A model generated the notes under the pieces. It ran no database searches, was not told the DNA's origin, and saw nothing but the letters and a program-made list of their open reading frames with translations. This document shows, piece after piece, positions 1-16,218 of a stretch of 64,000 nt of DNA (its first letter is position 1; each line of letters starts with the position of its first letter). This stretch comes from Pirellulales bacterium (GTDB lineage Bacteria; Planctomycetota; Planctomycetia; Pirellulales; Lacipirellulaceae): positions 310,001 to 374,000 of the forward strand of contig JAHBXQ010000001.1 of NCBI GenBank assembly GCA_019636345.1, read 5' to 3'. A program made the position numbers and the translations under genes.

Positions 1-1734
1 ACCTTGGTAAATGGTGTCCAGTCCGTCGACAAATTCGGGCTCATTTGCCATCGACCGCCGTTGGCCTGGGGTAGCGACTCCCTTGAGCAGAGTTTGCCTT
101 GCGGCTTCGTTTCTCATCAGGACGAGAGCGGGCTCAAGGGCCGAAATTGAAACGGGTTTGCCCCATGCCTCAAGGAGTAACAGGATGTCGAGGATGGCAC
201 GTCCCTTCTCCACCTGGACCGCCGAAGCGGCTCTTGCTGGTTGCCCGAATATGCGTTCCAGCAGCACCGAAGCCGGTTCGTATTCACGGCCTTCGCGGCG
301 GGCCAGATCGGCTTCGGTTTCCACAAGCTCTCCGGCGAATGCCTTGGCTAGGACTGAATGCGAGATATTCTCTGCTGAAGCGGTAGCCTCCCTCACACGG
401 TCTTCGACCGAATCGATGACGCCGAGTAACCGCGTCATTCGTCGGACAATCTCTTCCTGCTCCTCTCTAGGGGGCAATGGCACTGGGATGGCCCTCGAAT
501 CGCGTACGTTGATTCGTGGCATGTCGAGACCAACGTACCGTTGCTTCATCCACTCTTGTGCGTACGGGCCTGCGAGGTAGGCGGCTAAGTATGTAGCGGA
601 AACCACATCGGAAGGACGGAGTCGCACAGTTCCCTGTGTCAGATTGACGCCATCGAGCCCAGGTGGCACAACCGCCACTCTGAGATTTCGGATTACGCAC
701 AGAAGCACATCGCCCTCTGCGATTTGTGAGCGAGAATGTTTCGCTGCGATTTCCGGGGCAGTCCTCGCGAGTTGCTCAACAAGGATTCGCCCTCGGTCGT
801 CGATGTCTTGCCCGCGAATGTAGGGAATTCCTTCGTCGACTTGTGGGCCTGGCAGAACGATGCCGTAGGTAATAACAGTGTCAGGCTCGACAAGTTCATC
901 TGTCCGACCGTATGCCCAGCTTTCTGGCACCTCCGGTAGACCAGTCAGCTCAATGTCTGATTCTGCCTTGTATCGCTTCTTCCAACCGTCACTCCGTGGG
1001 GCTCCGCCCTTTGCAGCTAGCTTCGCCAACTCTGCGGATTCCCAGGCCGCCTTGTGCTTCTTCCGCATTAGGCAGAGCAACGACTCGCCTGACTCAACAT
1101 TGGGATTTTCCTCACGCCAGTCGGCGGTGAGACGACCCGAGCAGGCGGCGGCGAGGACGGATTGGCGGAACTTCTTGAGGATGTCGGGCACGCGGTCGAG
1201 CCGCTCGCGGGCATTGTTCACCCGCGCGAGCAGAGCCTCGACCTTCGCCACGATTCGCTTCTGTTCGGCGAATGGGGGTAGTGGCAAGGGATACTTCGCC
1301 AAGTCGCCGAATGCCACTCGTGGCAGACTGTTCCCCTTCTGATGGTCTGTGGCGTATTGCACAAACGATGACTCAGAAAGGAATCGCAGAAGGTACTCGG
1401 GAAGAACGCCAGTAGATGGGCGGAAGACGAGAATGTCGGTCGAGCACACTCCGTCGAAGTCTGGGATGGTGACTTTGTTCAGATAGGGACGGAGCTTTCC
1501 GTAAAGCACGTCGCCGCGATGGAACACGGCCTTTGTGCTCTTCACGTCTGACGCTACTCCTTTTGATTCGATTCGATTTGTGCCAGACTCGATGTGCTCA
1601 AGACTGAGATAGGGGGCGTCTGGACACCGGGATGGTTCAATCTTCTCCTTCGAGGGAGAAACTAACTGTCCGAGCGGAAATGTGCCCCAACCCTCTGGCA
1701 GTATCCCGTTGCTGCCTTCATGGCCATCACTCAT
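1..1734 (-). CDS. hsdS: Type I restriction-modification specificity subunit HsdS (3' end beyond window)
   Basis: DNA-recognition subunit of a type I R-M enzyme; it directs HsdM and HsdR to a bipartite target. The open frame runs from ATG at 1734 to the window edge, 578 codons with no stop, so the C-terminus is missing. Two target-recognition domains can be placed. The first ends before a conserved region with LPPFAEQKRIV and a helical spacer (KVEALLARVNNARERLD). The second ends at LPLPPREEQEEIV followed by a second helical spacer. After the second spacer there is a further segment of more than 80 residues, longer than the roughly 400-450 aa usual for the family, which may be an added domain. 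The start overlaps the stop of the phosphatase-like gene upstream (ATGA), which indicates translational coupling. Confidence 0.93.
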   Translation of the reverse strand, partial: MSDGHEGSNGILPEGWGTFPLGQLVSPSKEKIEPSRCPDAPYLSLEHIESGTNRIESKGVASDVKSTKAVFHRGDVLYGKLRPYLNKVTIPDFDGVCSTDILVFRPSTGVLPEYLLRFLSESSFVQYATDHQKGNSLPRVAFGDLAKYPLPLPPFAEQKRIVAKVEALLARVNNARERLDRVPDILKKFRQSVLAAACSGRLTADWREENPNVESGESLLCLMRKKHKAAWESAELAKLAAKGGAPRSDGWKKRYKAESDIELTGLPEVPESWAYGRTDELVEPDTVITYGIVLPGPQVDEGIPYIRGQDIDDRGRILVEQLARTAPEIAAKHSRSQIAEGDVLLCVIRNLRVAVVPPGLDGVNLTQGTVRLRPSDVVSATYLAAYLAGPYAQEWMKQRYVGLDMPRINVRDSRAIPVPLPPREEQEEIVRRMTRLLGVIDSVEDRVREATASAENISHSVLAKAFAGELVETEADLARREGREYEPASVLLERIFGQPARAASAVQVEKGRAILDILLLLEAWGKPVSISALEPALVLMRNEAARQTLLKGVATPGQRRSMANEPEFVDGLDTIYQG

Positions 1735-2204
1735 TGGATTTCCTCCCAATGCTGCGAGAGCCACGACTGGATGCCACGCCCAGGATTGTAGGGGTACTGT
1801 TCACGGAAAGCCTGTGCCGCTGCTTCGTAAGAGTCGCTCGGCAACTCATCCGTCCGTTTCGCTAGATAGAGCAATGCCAGTGAGGGAGCACGCGACTCGC
1901 CTTGGTTGCAGTGAATGACGACTCGTCGCTCGGCAATGTGCTTGTCGACGAACGCAAGAAAGGCCTCGAATGACGGCATCATGAAGAGCGGAGCCGGTGG
2001 GTCGATCAGATTCAAGAACAAGTGGTAGTCTCGCTCCAACACCAGGTAGTTCGGGTGCGTGTTTGGCAAGCTACGGCTGGAGTAGCCGACGGCGGCACGA
2101 TGGCATGGTTCCTTGCAGGCATGCACCACCGCCACCGCACCGCTCGTGTCGAGCATACAAGCCGATTCGTTGCCAAAGAGCAGATTGGGAAGCACTTGTT
2201 GCAC
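1731..2204 (-). CDS. Dual-specificity/tyrosine phosphatase-like protein inside the hsd operon
   Basis: 157-aa protein with the cysteine phosphatase signature HCNQGESR: H98, nucleophile C99 and phosphate-binding R105, that is HCx5R, followed by the usual Ser/Ala and a hydrophobic helix. D68 in the LNLIDPP segment is a candidate general acid. By family knowledge such enzymes remove phosphate from Tyr or Ser/Thr, or sometimes from nucleotides or RNA ends; the substrate here is unknown. The start is GTG at 2204, overlapping the hsdM stop (TAGTG), and the stop overlaps the hsdS start, so it is locked into the operon between hsdM and hsdS. That position suggests it serves the restriction system, perhaps by switching activity. 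The phosphatase fold is well supported; the role is inference. Confidence 0.85.
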   Translation of the reverse strand: MQQVLPNLLFGNESACMLDTSGAVAVVHACKEPCHRAAVGYSSRSLPNTHPNYLVLERDYHLFLNLIDPPAPLFMMPSFEAFLAFVDKHIAERRVVIHCNQGESRAPSLALLYLAKRTDELPSDSYEAAAQAFREQYPYNPGRGIQSWLSQHWEEIQ

Positions 2205-3667
2205 TACGAACCACCATTCTCTAGCAAAGCGACAACGCCATTGAGTTCCAGTATCGCACTCTCCAACTCCGAGATTGCATCGGTGACGAGCTGCTCCGGC
2301 GGAGGAAGGTCGTCGGCGTCGTCGAGCGACTCATCTCGCAGCCACTTGAGGCTATCGAGCTTGAAGTCGCGTTCCTTTACTTCGGCGATACTGAACTTTC
2401 GCCAGCGGTCCTCTTTCGAGTCACTCGCCTTTCGCTTCGCCTGCCCATTGGGGTCGTTGCCATAGCATTTCTCGAACGCGGCGAAATGCTCTGCGGTGAG
2501 AGGGCGGTCCTTCTTCGTGAGGCCGGGGATGTTGGTGCGGTTGTCGTAAATCCAAACCGTCTCGGTCGGGTAGCCCTTGGTGAAGAAAACGACATTCGTC
2601 TTCGTGCCGGGGCTGTACGGCGTGAAGGTGCCGTTGGTGAGCCGGAGCACGGTGTGCAGGTCGCAGTCTTCGGCGATGATTTTGAAGACCTCGCCTGCCT
2701 GGTCGGCAAACAGGCAATTATCGGGCACGACGACCGCCGCCCGACCACCGGGCTTGAGCGTGGTGAGTACGTGCTGCAAGAAGTTGAGCTGCTTGTTGCT
2801 CGTGGCGATCGTGAAGTCGTCTCGCGTGGGTGCCTGATTCGCCCCGCGAGTGCCGAAGGGCGGGTTGGTGAGGATGCAATCGAACCGGTCACCCGGCGGT
2901 GGGTCGTAGATGGAGTCGCCCAGGCCGACATGAGGCTCCAGGTTGTGCAGGTAGAGATTCATCAGGGCCAGACGGCGAGGGCGAGCGACGAGGTCTTGGC
3001 CGTAGTAGGTGGAGGCCTTCACCCGCTTGGCGGTCGGTCGGTCGAGGTCGGCCCCGTTCTTCGTGACGCTCAGCAGCCACTCATACGCCGAGACAAGGAA
3101 CTCGCCCGTGCCGCAGGCGGGGTCGCAAATCTTGTAGTCCTTGGTTGTGCGAGGATCGGGCTTCATGCAGCGGACGATGGACTGGATGAGCAGTCGCGGC
3201 GTGAAGTACTGCCCGGCTCCCTTCTTCCCTTCCGCAGCCGCCTTTTCGAGCAGTCCCTCGAAGGCGTCTGCCTTGACGTTGACTTCGAGCGTCGTCCACT
3301 CGGTCTCGTCGACGGTGGTCAAGAGTTGCTTGAGGCTGGTCGGCTTGTTGAAACGCGACTGTGCCCCCGAGAAGATATCGCCGAGCAAGCCTTCTTGTTG
3401 ACCGAGTGCCCGCAATACGTTCGCGTAGTAGTCGGTCAGGTCGGTGCCTGCCTTGGACGTGAGGGCTGGCCAAGAGCAGTCGAGTACGGTTGTTTTCTTG
3501 GGGTCGTCGACCGCCCGCATCTTGACCTTGGTCAGGTCAATGCCCCGCTCGTTCGACATCTTGAGAAAGAGCAAGTAGGTAATTTGCTCGATGTAGTCTC
3601 CATAGTCGATGCCGTCATGGCGAAGCGTATGGCAGAAGCCCCAGAGTTTTTGGACAACGTCACTCAT
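2204..3667 (-). CDS. hsdM: Type I restriction-modification DNA methyltransferase subunit HsdM
   Basis: 487-aa N6-adenine methyltransferase of the type I system. The N-terminal helical region (VQKLWGFCHTLRHDGIDY) matches the HsdM N domain. The SAM-binding motif I (DPACGTGEFL) lies near residue 186 and the catalytic motif IV (TNPPFGTRG) near residue 266, both intact, so methylation activity is expected. ATG at 3667 is chosen over a GTG one codon earlier because an AGGA lies about eight bases upstream of it. It overlaps the end of the CBS-HEPN gene by 8 bp, and its stop overlaps the GTG of the phosphatase gene. All hsd genes read the same way, consistent with one transcript. Confidence 0.95.
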   Translation of the reverse strand: MSDVVQKLWGFCHTLRHDGIDYGDYIEQITYLLFLKMSNERGIDLTKVKMRAVDDPKKTTVLDCSWPALTSKAGTDLTDYYANVLRALGQQEGLLGDIFSGAQSRFNKPTSLKQLLTTVDETEWTTLEVNVKADAFEGLLEKAAAEGKKGAGQYFTPRLLIQSIVRCMKPDPRTTKDYKICDPACGTGEFLVSAYEWLLSVTKNGADLDRPTAKRVKASTYYGQDLVARPRRLALMNLYLHNLEPHVGLGDSIYDPPPGDRFDCILTNPPFGTRGANQAPTRDDFTIATSNKQLNFLQHVLTTLKPGGRAAVVVPDNCLFADQAGEVFKIIAEDCDLHTVLRLTNGTFTPYSPGTKTNVVFFTKGYPTETVWIYDNRTNIPGLTKKDRPLTAEHFAAFEKCYGNDPNGQAKRKASDSKEDRWRKFSIAEVKERDFKLDSLKWLRDESLDDADDLPPPEQLVTDAISELESAILELNGVVALLENGGS

Positions 3668-4748
3668 CACATTGTTCCTGGCTCACGGCTAAATCGCGAA
3701 GTTCTTGAATAAACCGTGAACTCTTTCGAAGCGTCTCAAGGTCATCTTCACCAATACCGTCAGGGTCGAAATGCATTACGTCATTGCGTATTAGATTCAC
3801 TCGCTCCATGTCATCGACAAAAGTCTTCCGGTCAATGGGCAGACCTAGCTTCTGCCAGTTAGCTGGATTCTGGAGAAGCCGGACGTATTCGCCGAACGTC
3901 AAGTCAGACACATCGCTTACTTCACGCTCCTCATCTCCTGGATTCTTGGCAGCTTTGAGTTCTTCTCGTGAGAACTTCCCATCGATTAGGCCACGAATGT
4001 GGTTCTCAATTTCGCTCAGTAGTAGAAATGGTCGACCAAGTTCATCAAGTGTCTCGCTCAGGTCCGCCACAGTAACAATTCCGCATATGCGTCTGTCCTT
4101 TGCACGTACAAGAACAAAATCGTTCTCTCTTATTCGCTCGATTACACGGAATAGCGAGTCATCTTCAGTAACGATCTCGACGGAAGAATCCATGCAGTCC
4201 TGCACAGTCTCGCATTGGTGCCCCAACCCCGTGCGCTTTGCTATCGACTGCCATGTGATTGCACCTTTAACCTCTCGTTCACTTGTCATTACCGGCAGTT
4301 GTGAAAAGTTATCACGAAGCATCACTGTTATCGCTTCCTGGAGATTCGCTGTTGGAGGAATACTCGCTGGTGCAGTGTTTGCGGCATCTAACTTGCCAAT
4401 CCGAAAGGCTGGGTCCTCAACCGCTCCTCCGACTAGGGCTTTGACAATGGTAGCATCCGCCACATCCTCCATATTTAGAACCGATTCAGCATTAGCTGTC
4501 TGAACCCTTTCTGCTTCAGTACTAGGTCGTACAAACGCAACGGATCCATCAAACCACGTGTGTTCAAAGTCGGGCTGTGTGGTGAGGTTGTGTTCTCGTA
4601 GGGTTGCCCTGATGTCGCGTACAACTCGCCAACCGCGTCGCTCGAAACCAAACCACCCCAGGAATTCACGCACAGTTGCTTGCAGAGGCTCATTCTTATC
4701 AGCCTGTTCCTCTGCGAGGTCGAGTTTCTCTTTGTGAATAGACATCAT
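3660..4748 (-). CDS. CBS-domain protein with C-terminal HEPN-like RNxxxH motif, within hsd operon
   Basis: About 362 aa when started at the ATG pair at 4748/4745; an upstream frame extension to 4895 would overlap hsdR and looks unrelated. Residues 1-100 form an unrecognised N-terminal domain with GWFGFERRGWRVVRDIR. The middle, about 110-235, looks like a tandem CBS pair (LQEAITVMLRDNFSQLPVM, then a repeat ending CGIVTVADLSETL). CBS pairs typically bind adenosyl ligands. The helical C-terminus carries LIRNDVMHFDPDGI, with R321-N322 and H326 fitting the Rx4-6H active-site motif of HEPN RNases. Lying between hsdR and hsdM recalls, by analogy only, PrrC-type anticodon nucleases linked to type I systems. 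CBS is supported; RNase activity is inferred. Confidence 0.8.
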   Translation of the reverse strand: MMSIHKEKLDLAEEQADKNEPLQATVREFLGWFGFERRGWRVVRDIRATLREHNLTTQPDFEHTWFDGSVAFVRPSTEAERVQTANAESVLNMEDVADATIVKALVGGAVEDPAFRIGKLDAANTAPASIPPTANLQEAITVMLRDNFSQLPVMTSEREVKGAITWQSIAKRTGLGHQCETVQDCMDSSVEIVTEDDSLFRVIERIRENDFVLVRAKDRRICGIVTVADLSETLDELGRPFLLLSEIENHIRGLIDGKFSREELKAAKNPGDEEREVSDVSDLTFGEYVRLLQNPANWQKLGLPIDRKTFVDDMERVNLIRNDVMHFDPDGIGEDDLETLRKSSRFIQELRDLAVSQEQCDE

Positions 4749-4767
4749 GACTCTCGAAGTAGGTAAG

Positions 4768-7464
4768 TTAGGCCGCAATGGCTGCGTTAAGTTCGGCGAG
4801 GAGTTCCTTGAGCTTGCCTTCGAAGACCCGATTCGCACGCACCCAACCGCCTGCCTGCTCGAAGACAGGCATGAACGAGAAGTCGTCTTCGTCAATTGAG
4901 AGGCTAGTTACCAAGTGATCGCGGATACGGTCGAGCCACTTTTGTTGTTCGTCGGTGAATGACTTGTTTTTGGTCAGCTTCGAGAAGGCACGGTTGATTC
5001 GCTCCTCGGCAGTCAGCAGCGGCTGGGCTTCGTCGGCCACGTGCTTGACCATCGAAATAATCTCCACAAGGGCCTTGTGGTAGTGCAGCTCGTGAGCCCG
5101 CTGAAGGTTCTCGATGGTGAACCGCTCAGGGGCAGTGGCCAGTTTGTCTTTGAGTTCCGAGAGGGCTGACGTGTTCCAGTCACGAGGCCGGTCGAGCAGA
5201 ATGCCGATGGCGTCCACCTTGTCGGTGTTCTCTTCGACGAACCGAGCGAAGGCGGCGAGGTAGTCTTCCGGCTTGTACTCGTTCCCCTTGCCGTCGCGGA
5301 TGAGGTATTCGCTGGTGACCGTGTCTTCGTGCTCCGTTGCCCGCACGAAGATTTTCTTGCGGCGGGGGTAGTTGACGAGCAGGTCTTGGAACCCCTGGTC
5401 ACGGAGCAGCTTCATCGTTTCAACAAAGTCGTCGTTCAGATTCCGTGGCAACGCACGGGCGTACTTGCCTACGTCCCCATCGGCAATGCCGAATGCTGCG
5501 AACGTCTCGCGGGCCGAGGCATCCATTTCCTTCTCAATCCGTTGCAGGCGTTTCACCAGACAGCGGACGTTGTAGTCGCGGTCGCGATTGCTCCAAATGT
5601 CGTCGATGATCTGCTGGATAGTGCGAGCGGGCCTATCGGGCGGTTCCGCCGTGATGCCGGTCGATTTGCGGAAGTATTCGAGCAATGTGCCGTCGAAGCA
5701 GTCGAAGACGACGAAGTGCGACTTATCGGGATGGTGCTCTCCCTTGCGGGTGCCGCGACCCATCATTTGCTCGAACAGGATGCGTGACTTCACCGGTCGC
5801 AGGAAGACGATGAACTCCAGGTCCGGGATATCGACGCCGGTGGTGAGCAAGTCGACCGTGACAGCAATCCCCGGATTCTTTCGATTGCGAAACTCACGTA
5901 TCTGCTGCAACGGCCGGTCGACTCGCCCTGTGATTTTGCGAACGAAGGCGTCGCCACGCCCAAAGACTTCGCGGCAGACTTCGACCAATTGGTCGCAGTG
6001 AGACGTGTGGGTCAGGTCGTTGGCGGCGAAGATGAGCGTCTTCGGGAATCGCCCGGTCGCCTGCTCGTGCTCGTCGGCGTACTTCTTCAGCTCTTGAGCT
6101 ATCTTGCGGTTGGAGTCAGGTGAGGTCACCACGCGTTCGACTTCGGTGTTCGCAAACTGGCGCTCATCTTCAAGGGCGTCGCGAGTCTCGGCCCCGCTGT
6201 CCGGGTCGATGATATCGACTTCCTCTCCTTCGTCGAGGAAGACTCCATTCATCCGCACGTCCGACTTCACACGCACGGCGTCGTAATCGACGAGAAAGCC
6301 CTCGCGGACGGCCCGCTCGTACTCGTAGCGGTAGACGACGTCCTTGAAGTAGGCTTTGGTGTGGGCGGCGGGCGTCGCCGTGAGCCCCACGCGGATCGCA
6401 TCGAAGTGGTTGAGCGTATCCCGCCATACAGAGACCTCGCCAGTGGTGTAACCGCGATGGCATTCGTCCGCCACGATGAGGTCGAAGGCGTGAATCGGTA
6501 TTTTGAGTTGCTCGGCATCGTCGTCGATTTCCTCTTCCGAGGTGGTCTGAAACACCGCTTGCCGCCCGAAGAGGTTGATGGTCATCCGTTGGATGGTGCA
6601 GACGTAGACAAAAGCATGACCTGGCGTCGGGTTCTCCAGGTAGTTCTTGGGCAATACCTTGGGGTCGAACGGCTCGTCGTCGCCAAAATCGCCCGTTTGA
6701 AACCGCTGGCTGTAGACTTCGTAGATGTGGTCGAACTTAAGGCCCGGCTCTGGCTCAAAGGCTGCGAACGCCCTCACCGCCTGGGCGGCTAAGGCACGTC
6801 GGTCGACCAAGAAGAGGATTCGTTTGGCCGCCCCCGACTTCATCAGCCGGTAAATCTGATTGACGGTCGTGAACGTCTTGCCGGTGCCGGTCGCCATGGC
6901 GACTAGCATCTGTCGCTTGCGGCCGATGATGGACTCTTCAACGGCGGCGTTCGCCTCGCCTTGGTATGGCCGCAGCCGGGGGTGATTGTTCGGAAGCCGC
7001 TGAAGCCTGGGGTAAGCTGCTTCGATATCGGTCGCCATGAGTTCCGCGAGTGCCGATGGCGTGTAGAAATCGGCAAGCTTGCGTGAGAGTTCTAGCTCGT
7101 GGCGAACGTCATGGAAGTAGACGACCTCCCCATTGGTTGAGAAGAGAAACGGGACGCGGAAGCCACGGTATTCCAATGGGCTGTCGGCGACGCCTTTTGA
7201 GTAGCGTTCGGCTTGCAGCAGAACACCTTGCGGGCCGAGGGAGAGCTTTTTTGCTTCGACGACGCCAAGCAATTGACCGTTGACGACAAGGGCGTAGTCG
7301 GCGGGACCGTTGGCCGTAGGATACTCCTCAATCGCGTGATGGGAGTACTCAGATAGCTCGTGGCCCTCCACGAATGGAACGACTTCCCAACCCAATGCCT
7401 TGAGCTTGGGGTCAATCCGCTTCTTGCGGGTGAGCCATTCGGATTCGTGAGAGGAGTCGGGCAC
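4768..7464 (-). CDS. hsdR: Type I restriction endonuclease/translocase subunit HsdR
   Basis: About 898-aa motor and nuclease subunit. The N-terminus holds a PD-(D/E)xK nuclease core (DYALVVNGQLLGVVEAKK, about residues 54-71). A superfamily 2 helicase follows, with Walker A MATGTGKT near residue 191, the DECH box (VADECHRG) near 333, and a late motif LLTTGVDIPDLEF. The C-terminal helical region resembles the EcoEI-type HsdR C-terminal domain. I place the start at GTG 7464 because GGAGGG lies just upstream and the in-frame extension to 7689 is low-complexity and overlaps the HTH gene. Only 19 bp separate it from the CBS-HEPN gene. No motif appears broken, so the system should be functional. Confidence 0.95.
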   Translation of the reverse strand: MPDSSHESEWLTRKKRIDPKLKALGWEVVPFVEGHELSEYSHHAIEEYPTANGPADYALVVNGQLLGVVEAKKLSLGPQGVLLQAERYSKGVADSPLEYRGFRVPFLFSTNGEVVYFHDVRHELELSRKLADFYTPSALAELMATDIEAAYPRLQRLPNNHPRLRPYQGEANAAVEESIIGRKRQMLVAMATGTGKTFTTVNQIYRLMKSGAAKRILFLVDRRALAAQAVRAFAAFEPEPGLKFDHIYEVYSQRFQTGDFGDDEPFDPKVLPKNYLENPTPGHAFVYVCTIQRMTINLFGRQAVFQTTSEEEIDDDAEQLKIPIHAFDLIVADECHRGYTTGEVSVWRDTLNHFDAIRVGLTATPAAHTKAYFKDVVYRYEYERAVREGFLVDYDAVRVKSDVRMNGVFLDEGEEVDIIDPDSGAETRDALEDERQFANTEVERVVTSPDSNRKIAQELKKYADEHEQATGRFPKTLIFAANDLTHTSHCDQLVEVCREVFGRGDAFVRKITGRVDRPLQQIREFRNRKNPGIAVTVDLLTTGVDIPDLEFIVFLRPVKSRILFEQMMGRGTRKGEHHPDKSHFVVFDCFDGTLLEYFRKSTGITAEPPDRPARTIQQIIDDIWSNRDRDYNVRCLVKRLQRIEKEMDASARETFAAFGIADGDVGKYARALPRNLNDDFVETMKLLRDQGFQDLLVNYPRRKKIFVRATEHEDTVTSEYLIRDGKGNEYKPEDYLAAFARFVEENTDKVDAIGILLDRPRDWNTSALSELKDKLATAPERFTIENLQRAHELHYHKALVEIISMVKHVADEAQPLLTAEERINRAFSKLTKNKSFTDEQQKWLDRIRDHLVTSLSIDEDDFSFMPVFEQAGGWVRANRVFEGKLKELLAELNAAIAA

Positions 7465-7483
7465 GTTCGCCCTCCGTCGAGGT

Positions 7484-7702
7484 CTATTTCGGCTTGCGTC
7501 GCTTCCTGGTCTTTTTCTCGGGTGTCTCGGCTTCGCTGAGCAGTGCGTCGAGTTCCTCTTTGGCGTAGAGCCGGTATCGGTTGATGGGATGGCGACGCTC
7601 CGCCAGCTTGCCACTCCGTCCCCAGTTCCGCAGCGTGTTCGGCGAGACGCCGAGGTACTCTGCGGCCTCCTTGATTCGGAGGTAGCCATCCAATTTGGGC
7701 AT
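7484..7702 (-). CDS. Small MerR/excisionase-type helix-turn-helix protein
   Basis: 72-aa DNA-binding protein. The sequence GYLRIKEAAEYLGVSPNTLRN followed by NRYRLYAKEELDALL is a typical winged-helix HTH_17/excisionase-like fold, with a lysine/arginine-rich tail. ATG at 7702 is chosen because GGAAG lies eight bases upstream; the frame is open further upstream to 7759 but that part has no family-like sequence. It is the first gene of the hsd operon, 19 bp before hsdR. It may act as a regulator of the restriction genes, comparable in role to controller proteins, or as an excision factor of the element. Confidence 0.8.
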   Translation of the reverse strand: MPKLDGYLRIKEAAEYLGVSPNTLRNWGRSGKLAERRHPINRYRLYAKEELDALLSEAETPEKKTRKRRKPK

Positions 7703-7740
7703 TGCTTCGCTTCCTGGCGTCAGGTCGGACTGTCGCAGTA

Positions 7741-7752
7741 GGTTAGCTAACC
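7741..7752. promoter_or_regulatory. Perfect 12-bp palindrome upstream of the hsd operon
   Basis: GGTTAGCTAACC is a perfect palindrome 38 bp before the HTH start. Its place in the divergent region between the HTH/hsd operon and the XRE gene makes it an operator candidate for one of the two HTH proteins. Confidence 0.4.
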
Positions 7753-7819
7753 TTACCAAACGTGGCTACGCGATGGAATCACCCACAGGGTCAAGCCGCC
7801 AACTCGCGAATGCGCGGCA

Positions 7820-10666: not shown

Positions 10667-13396
10667 TCAGAAGTCGGGTTCGACAATCTCGTGTGCGGTT
10701 GCGTCGTCAGACTTGTCTTCTGGCTCCGCGTCACCACGCAGGGTCGCCAGCAGCTTCGGCGGCAGCCGGAGGCGGCTGATGTCTTGCGCTTCCCACTCGG
10801 GAAGATAGTCGAGCTGCTCCTCGGTCTTCTCGTGTTCTTCGTTGCGAGGCGGCGGAGGAAGCGGATCTTGCCTGCCGTCGCCCGCGAGCACGTCCTTCCA
10901 CATGCCGCCGTTAATTTCAGGGTCGGACTTAATGAAGGCGTGGAAACCTCCTTCAGGCGAGCCGCTCGGCAGGTCCGCAAAACCGCTCGGCGGCACCAGG
11001 TCGGTCTCGTGGTCGCTGGTTGTCTCCGAGGAGCTGGCCGAGGTGCTGGCGTCGCGTCCCGCGTTCAAGGTCGAGCCGGTTGTCAGGTTGGTCTTAGTGC
11101 GCCAGCCTTTACCGAAGAACTTCGACGACCAGGTGGCCAACTCGCTGTCGCACCGCAGCAGCGCCTTGTTGCCAAGTCCCATCAAGAAGCCTGCGTGCTT
11201 CTCGTTGGTGGCGGCCGCCTTTTGCTCAAACTTCAGCGCGTTCATCGTCGCGAGCACTAGCACTAGCCCCTTGGAGCGTCCCTTGTCCGCGATGCCGCTC
11301 AGCTCGTCGAGGTCAGCCATCATCTGTGCCTCGTCGATAAACAGCCAAGTGATCGGATTTTCGACCTCCGGACCGTCGAGCAGTTTGTCGGCCGCCAGGC
11401 GGATCAGGCCGCGATAGTACGAAGCCAGCACGTCGGCCGCCTGATGGCTCCCCGTCATCAGCAGGACCGGGGGTTCGCTCGGGACGCGACGGGCCCAATC
11501 CAGAACGGAAAAGTAGCGACCTTCCGCTTCGGCTTCCTTCGAAGCGCACGCCAGGGGAACGAAGTCATCGAGGTAAGCAATCAAGGTCTGGACGATGTTC
11601 CCCTTCGTCGTCCGGGTCTGGCTCAACAGCCGCTTGAAGCGGCGGCCACCGGGGCTTTGGCCAAGCACCGCGTCAAGGCTGTCGCAGCAGAGGCAGGCGG
11701 TAAGCACGTCCCGCAACCCCCACGACTCGGCCTGTCTGGAGAACGTCTCGACGATGGCCTGGAACAGGACCCGGCTGATTTTCGGCCAGAAGGGGTCCCG
11801 TGAGTCGTCCGGAAAGAGCATGTCGGCGAAGCGTCGGGTGGAGAGGACCCCGAGGTCACGCGAAATATTCCAAGCGGCTCCTCTGTCATCAAACGGATTG
11901 ATGATCTTGTACAGTGACTCATTAGCGGCGCCATACGAGTCGTCGAGCATGGTCACAAAGTCGCCCTTGGGGTCGTGGATCAGCACCCGCACACGCGGGT
12001 CCTGCAACGCCCGTTCGAGGACTTGCAGCAGCAGTTCCTTCATGAAGACCGATTTGCCGGAGCCGATATTCCCGTGAAAGAAGAAGTGCTGCGCGACATG
12101 CGACTCGCGGAGAGGGGCCCCGCCGAACCGAATCGCAGGGAGATTGACGGGGCGCCGATAGTCGGAGGCGATCAGTTGGTCCGCACGCTGCCGGTCGGCA
12201 AGCGAAAGCTCGCCAGGGATGGGCTCGGCTAGGTCTCCACGGTTGAGACGAAAGTCCTCCTCCAGTTTCGCGACGTACGCAAACCGACCGAACCCATCAG
12301 GGGCGCCGTCGTGGATTGGTTCCCACGAGTAGCGGACTTCTTTCCACTCGTCGCCGGTATGAAGCACCGTCCATGCAAAATGGCGCTCCCAGTAGTAGCC
12401 GAGAAAATCGACCTGAACGGTGTTGCCCCACTGCGAGACGACGATTTGTCCCCACGTGAATTTCTGGACGCCCCCCGGGTTGAGCAGCAGGTAGTGTCGC
12501 CCCAGAAGCGTCACCTGCCTGCTTTCCGTCAGCTCGACCGACTCAATCGGCAGCCGGTCTCCTAGCAGCCACCCCCCCAGCTTGATGTGGTCGAGGATGA
12601 CGCTGGTACCTAGTGCGTGCGTCGTACAGTGATACTGGGAGAGATTAAGCGGGCGAAACGGCTGGTGTTTACTCCATAGAGGTTCCGGAGAGGTTCTAAC
12701 CTCAGCCCAGCCCCGGTTTTCGTCGTAGACCCAGATAGCCGTTTTTTCACCGAAGCGGTCGAAGGTTCGCAGTCTCAGGTTCAATTGAGCGACGAAGCCA
12801 TCGGGGGCCGACTTAGTCAAGAACAGCTCGGACCCGTCGGCCAGCGTGTAGGTCCTTCCAAACTCCAGGACTCTCGCCTCGTCGTCGGAAAGGACGACTC
12901 GACCGCCTCGATCAAGCCTAATCGGGTAGTCGTATAAGTCCGCCTGATGGGACCCAAACAACTCGACGACAGCGTCGGGGTCGACGATCAATCTCGCGAC
13001 TCCCTCTTCCTCCGTGCCGTGTGGCTTCGGTGTCGAACTCGTCGGCGGATGCTTCGCCCCGATAGGCGCATACTCGATGCGATACCACACTCCGAACTCG
13101 TGAAGATAGGTGACCGCCTCGTGCGAGTCCGAGCGGTGAACGTCGATCTGATACCGACCATCGCCCCGAGGACCCGCCATCACGGCGGCGCCGTCCGTAA
13201 GTAGAGCGTGCGAAGGCAATCGGCCAAGTGAAACGCGACCCGCTTTGGTTTCAACTTCGACGCGGCCGTCGGCGTGCAGGTGTAGTTGAGGCTCAACAGC
13301 CGAGGTGACCGGCCAGCGCGCGTGAAGTCGCCTGCTATACGCCACAAGCTCGATGGGTAAACGAGTGTCGGAAGCAACTTGTGGTGGCGCGCTCAT
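10667..13396 (-). CDS. Type IV coupling protein-like ATPase (TraD/TrwB/HerA family)
   Basis: 909-aa P-loop ATPase that probably pumps the relaxase-DNA complex during transfer. The Walker A motif GNIGSGKS lies near residue 442, followed by VLIHDPKGDF; the Walker B motif WLFIDEAQMM lies near residue 687, then VLVLATMNALKFEQK, as in coupling proteins and HerA-like translocases. The first 400 residues form a beta-rich domain of unknown type with no clear transmembrane helix, unlike TraD, so it may work with the membrane-anchored protein downstream. The C-terminus (from about 790) is Ser/Thr-rich then acidic. The ATG overlaps the relaxase stop (ATGA), so both are coupled. A HerA-like role outside conjugation is possible but the neighbour argues against it. 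Confidence 0.85.
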   Translation of the reverse strand: MSAPPQVASDTRLPIELVAYSRRLHARWPVTSAVEPQLHLHADGRVEVETKAGRVSLGRLPSHALLTDGAAVMAGPRGDGRYQIDVHRSDSHEAVTYLHEFGVWYRIEYAPIGAKHPPTSSTPKPHGTEEEGVARLIVDPDAVVELFGSHQADLYDYPIRLDRGGRVVLSDDEARVLEFGRTYTLADGSELFLTKSAPDGFVAQLNLRLRTFDRFGEKTAIWVYDENRGWAEVRTSPEPLWSKHQPFRPLNLSQYHCTTHALGTSVILDHIKLGGWLLGDRLPIESVELTESRQVTLLGRHYLLLNPGGVQKFTWGQIVVSQWGNTVQVDFLGYYWERHFAWTVLHTGDEWKEVRYSWEPIHDGAPDGFGRFAYVAKLEEDFRLNRGDLAEPIPGELSLADRQRADQLIASDYRRPVNLPAIRFGGAPLRESHVAQHFFFHGNIGSGKSVFMKELLLQVLERALQDPRVRVLIHDPKGDFVTMLDDSYGAANESLYKIINPFDDRGAAWNISRDLGVLSTRRFADMLFPDDSRDPFWPKISRVLFQAIVETFSRQAESWGLRDVLTACLCCDSLDAVLGQSPGGRRFKRLLSQTRTTKGNIVQTLIAYLDDFVPLACASKEAEAEGRYFSVLDWARRVPSEPPVLLMTGSHQAADVLASYYRGLIRLAADKLLDGPEVENPITWLFIDEAQMMADLDELSGIADKGRSKGLVLVLATMNALKFEQKAAATNEKHAGFLMGLGNKALLRCDSELATWSSKFFGKGWRTKTNLTTGSTLNAGRDASTSASSSETTSDHETDLVPPSGFADLPSGSPEGGFHAFIKSDPEINGGMWKDVLAGDGRQDPLPPPPRNEEHEKTEEQLDYLPEWEAQDISRLRLPPKLLATLRGDAEPEDKSDDATAHEIVEPDF

Positions 13397-16218
13397 CGCT
13401 CAAGCTCCAGCGACCGCTCTTTCTCCTGCTCTTCGTTTGCGACCTCCTTCTCGCGGTCGAGCCCGAACACTTTCCGTCGCGTCCGCGACATCACTCGCGT
13501 GAGGTGACACTGCTTCAAGGATTCTTTTCCCTCGAAGACGTGCTTGAGCTTCTTGTCGTACTCCTCTTGCTGCTGGTCGTCCCGTTCAAGCTCGGCTTTG
13601 CTGCGGAGCGACAGCAGCGTGAGTTCGGCGCCCGCCTCACCTTCGCTGGTGAACAGCTCAGTCTTCTCGGATGCTCGCGAGAACTGCACGTAGGACAGCT
13701 CACGGTCCTGAGCGGGTCCTCCGGCCAGTACGTAGATGTTCTCAAACGTGCTGCCCTGCGCGGCGTGGGTCGTGACGGCGTACCCCAAGGCGATTTCCGC
13801 CTTGCGAATCGCTTTGAAAAGCGGGGGTCGTCCCTCCTCGGGACGCGTCATCACCTCCAACGGCACGTCGAGCGTCCGGCCGTCGTCCATCGCCACGCGG
13901 ATGCACTTGGCGAACGGATTGATGGAGAGAACCGTGCCGAACTGGCCGCGGTTGATTTGCTCGCGACGCGACACTTGTTTCTTGAGCCAAGTGTTCTTCG
14001 CGAAGTCCTCCACGACCTCGCCAACCGTTTCGGCGTCTCTATAGAAGTGGAGCGACTCGCGGAAGTGGACGCGGTCACCGGCGTACAACTTCTGCCCCTC
14101 GTGATTCGTGACGGCCGCCCCCAAGGTCCGTTGAACGGCGCCCAATCGCTCGGCCTGGAGCATCTCGTTGAGCGACCTGCGTTGCTCGTGCGTGCCGACG
14201 AGCACTTGGTTCTCCGCCGGGTCCCTCACCCCCTGTTCTTTCCACCGCGAGACGAGTTCTTCCATCGCTTCCCGTTCGGTCGCGCGGACGTGGACGCGTC
14301 CCCGCTCGGCGAGACTCCGCAGGGCGAGGTCCGCCTTGCCGCTCGCCAGGTTCACCGCGACCTCCACGTCCTCGGCTTGCTTCTGCCGCCAGACCTCGGT
14401 CAAGCGTTCTCCCGGTACAGCCCGGCTTGTGACGGTGAAGGCCCCGCCGTGGCCAATCGCCTGACATTGCTTCTCGTCGCCAACAAGACAGACGAGCGTC
14501 CCCTTCGCGCGCGCCAGGGACGCCAATCGGTAGAGCGAAGGGGTCTCGACCATCGCGGCTTCGTCGATGACGAGCACCGTGTTGGCGTCTAGCTGGGGAG
14601 TCTTCTTCTGGTCGGCTGAGTCGCGATGCGGCTCGCTCGCAGCCTTCGCGTTGTCGTGGAGCCATTTCGCGACGGTGAACGACTCGATCCCCGAGCTGTT
14701 CTCCAGCTCAAGCACAGCTCGCCCGGCGAGGGCGGCGCCGACGACCCGGCATCCCTCCTTCTCCCACGCGGTCTTCGCCGTGCGGAGCACGGTCGTCTTG
14801 CCGGTCCCCGCGTCCCCCGTCAGCACACGGACGCCACCCGCCACTTCGCCGCGCCGGGTCAGACCCTGGGTCAGGTAAGAGACCGCAAACCGCTGCTCCT
14901 CGGAGAGCGTGTGCTCCGTGGTCGACTCCTCGTTCTCGCGGAACACCGTGCGGAGCGTCGAGTTCTCTAGGCGATGGTGCGGGTCGCTGGCGCTCTGCTG
15001 GACGAGCGACGAGTACTCCCACTCCCCCTTGAGCACGCCTTGGGTCGACAGCACCCGCGATAGCTTTTCCTCGCCCAAGCTCACCAGCTCCCCCGACACG
15101 ATTTCTTCTTGGACGAGCGTCTCGATCTCTTTCGCGGAAACCCCTTGCGTCTGGAGCAGATTGGCGAGTTCGCGGTGCAGCTCGCGGACGGGGAACGAGC
15201 CCATCTCGCCCGCAAGCTCCTCGGCCGCCTCACGCAGAGCCAGGGCAGAGTCCTCCCGCGTGTAGGACGTTGCTAGCATCTTGCCCGTGACCTCTTTGAG
15301 GGTCTCGGTGGTGACGCCGAACGCTTTCAGCTCTTCCTTCCACTCCTCGAAGAGTTTGGGGCGGCTGACTTCTGCTTTCTCCGTCCGAGTCGATAGGGTC
15401 GCAATCTCGGCGGCTTCAGCCGTCTCGAATCCGACCTGCCGCAACTGCTCCTCGATCTTCTCGCGCCGTTTGGAGTAATGTTCGCAGGCCTCCTTCGCGA
15501 TGCCTTCGATGACAAACGAGAACCCGTTGTCGTCCATCGAGAGCTGAACGCCGAGCCGCCGGGCGAGTTGGGCCGCCAGCTCGGCTCGGTAGATGGCCCC
15601 GGCCGCCATCTTGTGGTCGAACAGCGGGCTCTCTACGTCGAGGATGCGTCCTTCGTCATCCTTGACCACGCGGCCGTAGAGTGTGCCGGTCGTGCCATCG
15701 CTTCGGACGCAAGCGTTGGCGATGACGCAGTGCGTGTGCAGGTGCGGGTCGCCCGCTCGCGAAGTGGCGTGCTCAAAAGTCGCAACGACCAGCTTCGCGT
15801 GCTCAACCTCCGAGCCTTGTTTGCCTCGCCGGGTATACGCGGCGTTCCGCTCTAGGTACTCGATGCCCGCCCGAACCGCTTCGGCCTGGCACTTCTGGAT
15901 TTCTTGCTGGACTTCCTGCGGGGCGGCCGCCCACAACACCGACACCGACTTGGGGGCCGAGAAGGTGAAGTCGAGCCCCGACTGCCGAGTCGGCTTGCCC
16001 GCGTTCTGGACCAGCTTGGTCTCGTGGTCGAGCGGGGAGAACCCGCGAAGCAACGACTTCAGCGCGTCGCGGTGGACCTTCTTGCAGTCCAGGGCGAAAT
16101 GCACAGCCCCTGACCCCAACCAGCGGCCGGGCGGCTCGCCCCCCTTGGTGTAGTACTCGTCTCGGGCGAGGTCCGTGAAGTACTTCCCGTCTCCAGTTAC
16201 GACGCTCGCAGAGAGCAT
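13393..16218 (-). CDS. MobF-family conjugative relaxase-helicase (TrwC/TraI type)
   Basis: 941-aa relaxase. The N-terminal TrwC domain has candidate nicking tyrosines Y22-Y23 (DEYYTKGG) and the metal-binding three-histidine motif HLHTHCVIAN near residue 161, preceded by DFTFSAPKSVSVLW. The second half is a RecD2/TraA-like helicase with Walker A TGDAGTGKTT near residue 471, VIDEAAMV, and a late motif ending TTHAAQGSTFENIYVLAG. Such enzymes nick at oriT, stay bound to the 5' end and unwind the transferred strand. All key residues are present. ATG 16218 has GGAG upstream. Downstream it couples to the ATPase gene, upstream lies a small DNA-binding gene; together they form the mobilisation operon. 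Confidence 0.96.
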   Translation of the reverse strand: MLSASVVTGDGKYFTDLARDEYYTKGGEPPGRWLGSGAVHFALDCKKVHRDALKSLLRGFSPLDHETKLVQNAGKPTRQSGLDFTFSAPKSVSVLWAAAPQEVQQEIQKCQAEAVRAGIEYLERNAAYTRRGKQGSEVEHAKLVVATFEHATSRAGDPHLHTHCVIANACVRSDGTTGTLYGRVVKDDEGRILDVESPLFDHKMAAGAIYRAELAAQLARRLGVQLSMDDNGFSFVIEGIAKEACEHYSKRREKIEEQLRQVGFETAEAAEIATLSTRTEKAEVSRPKLFEEWKEELKAFGVTTETLKEVTGKMLATSYTREDSALALREAAEELAGEMGSFPVRELHRELANLLQTQGVSAKEIETLVQEEIVSGELVSLGEEKLSRVLSTQGVLKGEWEYSSLVQQSASDPHHRLENSTLRTVFRENEESTTEHTLSEEQRFAVSYLTQGLTRRGEVAGGVRVLTGDAGTGKTTVLRTAKTAWEKEGCRVVGAALAGRAVLELENSSGIESFTVAKWLHDNAKAASEPHRDSADQKKTPQLDANTVLVIDEAAMVETPSLYRLASLARAKGTLVCLVGDEKQCQAIGHGGAFTVTSRAVPGERLTEVWRQKQAEDVEVAVNLASGKADLALRSLAERGRVHVRATEREAMEELVSRWKEQGVRDPAENQVLVGTHEQRRSLNEMLQAERLGAVQRTLGAAVTNHEGQKLYAGDRVHFRESLHFYRDAETVGEVVEDFAKNTWLKKQVSRREQINRGQFGTVLSINPFAKCIRVAMDDGRTLDVPLEVMTRPEEGRPPLFKAIRKAEIALGYAVTTHAAQGSTFENIYVLAGGPAQDRELSYVQFSRASEKTELFTSEGEAGAELTLLSLRSKAELERDDQQQEEYDKKLKHVFEGKESLKQCHLTRVMSRTRRKVFGLDREKEVANEEQEKERSLELER

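Follow-up and report, generated by a model that had tools for sequence, protein, structure and literature searches.

A predicted cysteine phosphatase encoded between hsdM and hsdS of a Pirellulales type I restriction operon, with relatives in other defence loci and in phages

Type I restriction is usually viewed as a closed M-S-R machine, the best-studied addition to which is the toxin PrrC. The present analysis concerns a putative phosphatase gene located between hsdM and hsdS of such an operon in a 64,000-nucleotide stretch of DNA from a Pirellulales bacterium (assembly GCA_019636345.1, contig JAHBXQ010000001.1, positions 310,001 to 374,000 of the forward strand), hereafter called the window. 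Optional genes embedded in hsd operons have been described before: the portions of the literature available to us report PrrC, RhuM and DOC neighbours (PMC3710099) and again PrrC (PMC12707154) as accessory genes, and a term search of those portions of both papers found no mention of a phosphatase in this position. PrrC, RhuM and Fic/DOC are nuclease, DNA-binding and AMP-transfer proteins, respectively, whereas the window gene encodes a predicted phosphatase. Among defence loci, KKP likewise includes a phosphatase gene, described in PMC11341870 as encoding a PP2C-type phosphatase that works with two kinases, but the window protein has a dual-specificity phosphatase (DSP) fold and its operon neighbours are not kinases, which sets it apart from KKP. 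The defence phosphatase domains DS-9 and PglZ, whose substrates are not known according to the excerpts of PMC13092281 and PMC12707154, are of the metallophosphatase/HAD and alkaline-phosphatase types, whereas a cysteine phosphatase type is predicted here. With regard to phosphorylation of the restriction machinery, PMC3874165 states that threonine phosphorylation of the EcoKI R subunit can occur and may play a part in localisation, disassembly or proteolysis, and that representative type IB and IC R subunits were not phosphorylated; PMC12707154 names R-subunit phosphorylation among the factors that may delay restriction. No account of this phosphatase family in hsd operons was found in the open-access literature searched. 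Accessory genes in type I operons are thus already known, and it is a DSP subfamily in this role, common to defence loci and phages, that was not found described.

The phosphatase gene occupies positions 1731 to 2204 on the minus strand, starts with GTG and encodes 157 amino acids, predicted to form a cysteine phosphatase of a distinct DSP subfamily. Two observations from an earlier sequence-only reading of the window were confirmed: the HCx5R active site is intact, with H98, C99 and R105 lying within HCNQGESR of the minus-strand frame, and the gene overlaps both of its neighbours. One base is common to the hsdM stop codon and the phosphatase start codon (TAGTG, a 1-nt overlap), and four bases are common to the phosphatase stop codon and the hsdS ATG at 1734 (ATGA, a 4-nt overlap); a second possible hsdS start, an in-frame GTG at 1764, lies upstream of this ATG. 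The gene is therefore embedded in the run of hsd reading frames, as is expected of a type I accessory gene, and, judging from these junctions, its frame is translationally coupled to hsdM and hsdS. A relative of it, found in a Gemmataceae genome (L098), is 69% identical and lies directly before hsdS; for this pair dN was 0.23, and dS was not estimable and is presumably saturated. This relative, together with the profile and structural matches described below, indicates a real gene beyond chance, despite a Pfam score under the curated cut-off.

The window protein matched Pfam DSPc (PF00782) with an E-value of 5.1e-5 and 23.5 bits, under the curated gathering cut-off of 33.5, and was therefore placed only in the fold superfamily, as a distinct subfamily; none of the NCBIfam and PADLOC families matched it. 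The three hallmarks of the DUSP superfamily, namely the HCx5R loop, an upstream Asp and the fold, were all found. A profile built from 71 relatives matched solved DUSP chains (DUSP3, DUSP10) at an E-value of 3.9e-10, and an AlphaFold2 model computed from 68 sequences (mean pLDDT 94.7, pTM 0.91) had the DUSP fold, its best superposition (VIA-align) being with 4yr8_B (Z 15.4, rmsd 3.0 over 130 residues, 22% identity) and its Foldseek matches also being DUSPs. Fold and catalytic layout are common to the window protein and the eukaryotic DUSPs (DUSP16, DUSP8, DUSP10, VHR/DUSP3), but identity to these is only about 20%, and a conserved insert, HACK..H..GY..Y, located between the strand at 24-28 and N65, marks the prokaryotic subfamily. 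This family-specific insert lies around K31-Y53 and is followed by N65 and D68, the latter situated 31 residues before C99, kept in 142 of 144 rows and, from its position, likely the general acid. Nine residues (K31, H35, Y41, Y53, N65, D68, C99, S104 and R105) did not vary among the 16 type I rows, which comprise the window and 15 loci, and each of them was kept in at least 55 of the 57 unlinked and at least 61 of the 65 viral rows. No residue separating the type I members from the rest of the family was found at the 24 positions compared. The HCx5R motif was present in 16/16 type I loci, 78/80 genome loci and 65/80 viral loci, the 15 viral exceptions having His replaced by Ala (14) or Asn (1). 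Ala for His marks a phage branch (L060, L062-L064, L071, L072, L081, L085-L088, L092, L094 and L095 from IMG/VR, together with L011) in which Cys, Arg and Asp are kept and the catalytic chemistry of which may be different. From its conserved residues and modelled fold, we infer that the window protein is a catalytically competent phosphatase.

A scan of 84,980 bacterial and archaeal genomes found 92 relatives, 80 of which were kept as loci, and 113 were found in IMG/VR, of which 80 were likewise kept. These loci are not all independent, as L135 is the same contig stretch as G324/L013, and L138 and L008, like L109 and L114, are near-identical. Neighbouring hsd genes were assigned with HsdM, HsdS and HsdR profiles built for this analysis and with a BLAST cluster (c4) that Pfam identifies as HsdR in L150; hsdR was assigned by BLAST cluster in most type I loci, with Pfam checks on some members only. 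In 15 of the 80 genome loci, and on one IMG/VR contig (L018), hsdS or hsdR was found within 6 kb on the same strand, and in six of the 80, including L099 (type IIG-like by Pfam), a methylase gene only. Density of hsd-type genes was 9.5 times higher within 3 kb of the phosphatase (40 in 419.5 kb) than at 6-9 kb (3 in 299.0 kb), with 6 in 336.9 kb in between, and the genes lay on the phosphatase strand in 39/40, 2/3 and 4/6 cases, respectively. The gene thus recurs in unrelated hsd operons, as expected of a type I accessory gene, and it does so in a recurring order, mostly hsdS-phosphatase-hsdR, rather than as the scattered single insertions that would have spoken against the sequence-only reading. 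An isolated chance insertion was rejected in view of this recurrence (15/80 loci) and of the enrichment of hsd genes close to the gene.

The order hsdS, phosphatase, hsdR, sometimes with intervening genes, was seen in L018, L129, L133, L141, L143, L148, L154, L170 and L177, and hsdM-RhuM-phosphatase-hsdS was seen once (L150). In L098 the phosphatase is followed by hsdS, the contig ending about 1.1 kb upstream with no hsdM in view; in L142 hsdM and hsdS lie upstream and the phosphatase is flanked by pieces of c4, and in L131, L144, L166 and L169 hsdR alone was seen. Overlaps of 4 nt occur with hsdS in L148, L154, L177 and L098 and with hsdR in L170, while the phosphatase gene of L150 overlaps RhuM by 1 nt and hsdS by 8 nt. 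RhuM, Fic and YgjP genes were found in the same operons as phosphatase members. A comparison of Pfam families covered 121 of 287 near open reading frames (ORFs; 122 drawn, one of 2225 aa left out) and 150 of 184 far ORFs, the hsdM of L129 being among the latter. SWI2_SNF2, HSDR_N, ResIII, AAA_13 and Methylase_S were the most frequent among the 25 of 95 near families listed (3-4 of 121 proteins each, which are small numbers), and AAA_5, ABC and MFS transporters and others among the 25 of 144 far families listed (2-3 of 150 each). In agreement with the gene densities, type I families lead the near list and unrelated families the far one. As a separate observation, hsdM and hsdS of a Pseudoflavonifractor operon are separated by a KwaB-like gene (Pfam KwaB, 41.6 bits) together with a small ORF, a membrane protein by eye (L177:2468-3969, plus strand); a Kiwa-like system may here be lodged within a type I operon.

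Relatives were also found next to other defence genes. AAA_13/PDC-S06 (PrrC/RloC-like) genes lie beside the phosphatase in L116 and L158 and, by cluster, in L018, L108 and L113, and further neighbours were QatA in L149 (435 bits), Ppl in L104 (143 bits), LmuB in L162 (105 bits), a type IIG model match in L155 (110 bits) and, in L161, a UvrD/PDDEXK protein with partial GajB similarity; these are examples and not a rate, as they were chosen as large genes next to the phosphatase. In phages, two proteins annotated as DSPs, ORF44 of Vibrio phage VpV262 and gp146 of Tunturiibacter phage Tunturi_3, belong to the same subfamily (31% and 30% identity to the window protein, respectively), the former also being the best fold match in BFVD (TM 0.82), but both are phage genes outside hsd operons, with Asn (VpV262) or Ala (Tunturi_3) in place of the His of HCx5R. 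Matches were found in 5 of 50,697 phage records, two of which are the same phage, VpV262, and the IMG/VR scan with the single window protein as query gave no match. Of the ORFs lying within 1.5 kb of the phosphatase across the 79 viral loci examined, 51 belonged to one cluster (c1), by eye the terminase large subunit. Only 2 of 72,556 plasmid records matched, one through a truncated copy of 60% identity and the other through a 26% match in Spiroplasma. The truncated copy, unannotated and 60% identical over the matched part, is found on an Alteromonas plasmid (L008:8968-9312, plus strand) and on an Alteromonas profundi contig (L138:8968-9312, plus strand), about 2.9 kb from a HipA-family gene in both. 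In a sample of 392 genomes of the phylum, six matched the window phosphatase at an E-value of 1e-3: the window genome, G324 (intact, outside any hsd operon), G327 (broken, near an hsdR-like c4 ORF) and three weak matches, in G109, G171 and G318. These three were rejected as family members, as they scored 44-78 bits with the family profile or did not match it at all, and were treated as other DSPs. A broken copy lies near a c4 ORF in L014 (9218-9614, minus strand; same order as the window), with ORFs that are HEPN-like by eye upstream.

Trees were built with FastTree from 144 rows (proteins cut at 175 residues; rows under 110 aa, including L169, identical rows and skip-list loci left out) and with IQ-TREE from 100 rows (six further short or broken rows dropped, 25 viral rows kept). 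The type I label required 14 changes in the former, at least 5 of them forced by starred branches, and 13 in the latter, at least 3 of them forced, with 63/500 and 36/500 shuffles, respectively, as low. In these trees the label is scattered, and hardly more clustered than shuffled labels. Since label changes can be gains or losses, an old hsd link with many losses is possible. The window and L098 were sisters (support 99 and 96) in a 48-row FastTree group without any other type I row, and 13 of the 16 type I rows lay across the FastTree root from them.

The reading that we favour, if tentatively, is that the phosphatase is a portable, optional accessory of defence operons that acts on the same substrate throughout, and not an enzyme dedicated to Hsd subunits; its activity, the common substrate and any effect on defence are what we infer here. 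The gene would have been inserted at the hsdM-hsdS junction in this genome and would be translated in coupling with both genes. It would most likely hydrolyse one phosphate ester common to all settings of the family, candidates being a small ligand that carries phosphate, the end of a nucleic acid or a phosphorylation mark set during infection; in a restriction operon it may serve as a co-produced regulator or a second defence layer, and in a phage its activity would erase this very signal for the benefit of the phage. As the neighbours vary while the insert and the catalytic residues stay constant, the family probably acts on one substrate whatever the setting, and such neighbour-independent conservation favours the context-free targets among those previously proposed (a Hsd subunit, the CBS-HEPN protein of the operon, a phage protein or a nucleotide signal), service to one particular Hsd subunit being less likely. 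A bolder version, in which one enzyme serves both sides because bacterial type I, type IIG, Qat, Lamassu-like and PrrC-like loci as well as phages all act on one infection-made phosphate signal, seems rather unlikely. Several points weigh against a portable accessory with a common substrate. No hsd-type or methylase gene was found within 6 kb on the same strand in 59 of the 80 genome loci, some of whose contigs are short; the conserved insert may be structural in role; and a type I-specific substrate may exist. Furthermore, the hsdM-hsdS spacers were inspected for the nine phylum-sample HsdM proteins closest to that of the window (63-75% identity), and none contained the phosphatase: six had hsdS adjoining hsdM, two had other small genes in the gap and one was cut off. 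Of the earlier suggestion that tight coupling gives equal dosage with the methylase and specificity subunits, the coupling stands, through the overlapping frames, but the equal dosage is weakened by this result and by the position of most relatives away from hsd genes.

A dedicated Hsd regulator, which would dephosphorylate HsdR, HsdM or HsdS and might, for example, undo a phosphorylation by which restriction is damped or HsdR is tagged for proteolysis, appears unlikely. Coupled translation with hsdM and hsdS, the repeated placement at M-S and S-R junctions, and the statements on threonine phosphorylation of the EcoKI R subunit (PMC3874165) and on its possible part in delayed restriction (PMC12707154) would all be consistent with it. 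Most relatives lie outside hsd operons, however, the family is carried by phages, no residue distinguishes the type I members at the 24 positions compared, and the nine closest HsdM relatives are without the gene. The EcoEI_R_C domain of the window HsdR, moreover, is one that we take to be type IB-like. That would place it in a class whose representative R subunit was not phosphorylated, according to PMC3874165.

In minus-strand order the genes of the operon are a small HTH gene, hsdR, CBS-HEPN, hsdM, the phosphatase and hsdS. The small HTH gene (excisionase/MerR-like; 7484 to 7759, minus strand; HTH_17, 49.1 bits) heads the run and is overlapped by the listed ORF of hsdR (4768 to 7689, minus strand; EcoEI_R_C, ResIII and HSDR_N by Pfam), whose true start is therefore uncertain. 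The CBS-HEPN gene (DS-11 family; 3660 to 4895, minus strand; NF053863, 393.6 bits against a cut-off of 260; CBS, 57.4 bits) has a listed TTG start that is probably too far upstream, the first internal ATGs lying near 4745. The hsdM gene (2204 to 3670, minus strand) gave 194.6 bits with N6_Mtase and 36.4 bits with HsdM_N, and hsdS (minus strand; Methylase_S, 68.2 bits; PADLOC Specificity_I) extends from 1734 to position 1 and on past the window edge to L213:9800, encoding 644 aa from its ATG, L213 being the genome stretch immediately left of the window. There, hsdS is followed on the same strand by two ATPase-like ORFs (L213:5242-9825, minus strand), one of 652 aa overlapping the hsdS end and one of 857 aa 51 nt further on. 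Their best PADLOC similarities were weak (LmuB, 28.5 bits; AriA, 57.5 bits, with PtuA/GajA likeness also), and searches of solved structures with both gave no match; they may be part of the same operon. The earlier count of a five-component defence locus was thus too low. An identity as MADS was rejected, as all three models fell far under their NCBIfam cut-offs (MAD1 16.5 against 80, MAD2 68.4 against 720 and MAD5 48.3 against 400 bits).

Genes for a TrwB-like coupling protein (10667-13396, minus strand) and a TrwC relaxase (13393-16218, minus strand) lie near the operon, and the locus may therefore belong to a mobile element. The small genes seen in two of the nine hsdM-hsdS gaps, by eye, are one of about 135 aa (L181:380-900) and an antitoxin/PIN-toxin pair (L185:690-1500), and with such other cargo the junction looks like a recurrent insertion slot. 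These features, the phage and IMG/VR family members, the broken copies in L008 and L014, the early end of the L169 protein (after the motif) and the scatter of the type I label in both trees would suit a passenger, a gene of mobile or phage origin that has settled in a cargo hot-spot and is functionally unconnected with restriction. A mere passenger is nevertheless quite improbable given the exact 1-, 4- and 8-nt overlaps in several operons, the motif intact in every type I locus and the co-directionality of 39 of the 40 nearby hsd-type genes.

The CBS-HEPN gene has a G+C content of 50%, against 57-60% for the hsd genes and the phosphatase, and so looks like a separate arrival, probably acquired separately. 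DS-11 is a known, tested antiphage protein acting as a single gene (PMC13092281, in the part available), and a profile started from the CBS-HEPN protein of the window turned up no relative in the 177 loci, which hold 2767 ORFs. Four other CBS-HEPN carriers were present among the 392 genomes, all different from the phosphatase carriers, and no hsd gene or phosphatase was seen in their flanks of about 1.5 kb. Among these loci and genomes the pair was thus found together in the window only, and the idea of a special phosphatase/CBS-HEPN unit was rejected. Across the family, a link to HEPN proteins through the RX4H motif was rejected as unconvincing, as no clear enrichment was seen (28/287 near, 18/276 middle and 14/184 far ORFs). 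A kinase partner was also rejected, as the sole ORF with a strict kinase motif lay 6.8 kb from the phosphatase and HipA-family genes were found in three loci only, at 2.9 kb (L008 and L138, the same broken copy) and 4.6 kb (L106). A brake or antitoxin keeping a toxic partner (CBS-HEPN here; a PrrC/RloC-like protein, another HEPN protein or a kinase elsewhere) inactive by dephosphorylation until its release on infection is therefore very unlikely, even though HEPN-type or AAA_13 genes lie near the phosphatase in the window, L099, L116 and L158 and, by cluster or eye, in L018, L108, L113, L120, L130, L131 and L014 (clusters c73 and c186 being taken for HEPN by eye, with sub-threshold Pfam support for c73 in L131 only), and the PP2C phosphatase of the KKP module (PMC11341870, in part) would offer a precedent by analogy.

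The recurrence of the phosphatase in restriction and anti-phage operons and in phages suggests that a step of phosphate removal has gone unrecognised in the conflict of bacteria with phages. Defence phosphatases with targets not known would gain a new enzyme class in this predicted cysteine phosphatase, which would also offer a concrete and testable way into the reported, so far unexplained phosphorylation of HsdR. If the favoured reading of a portable accessory is true, a phosphate mark would be contested between bacteria and phages during infection, and if a single signal is indeed common to all of these settings, phosphorylation would govern restriction and other defences as a general layer of control that has stayed hidden.

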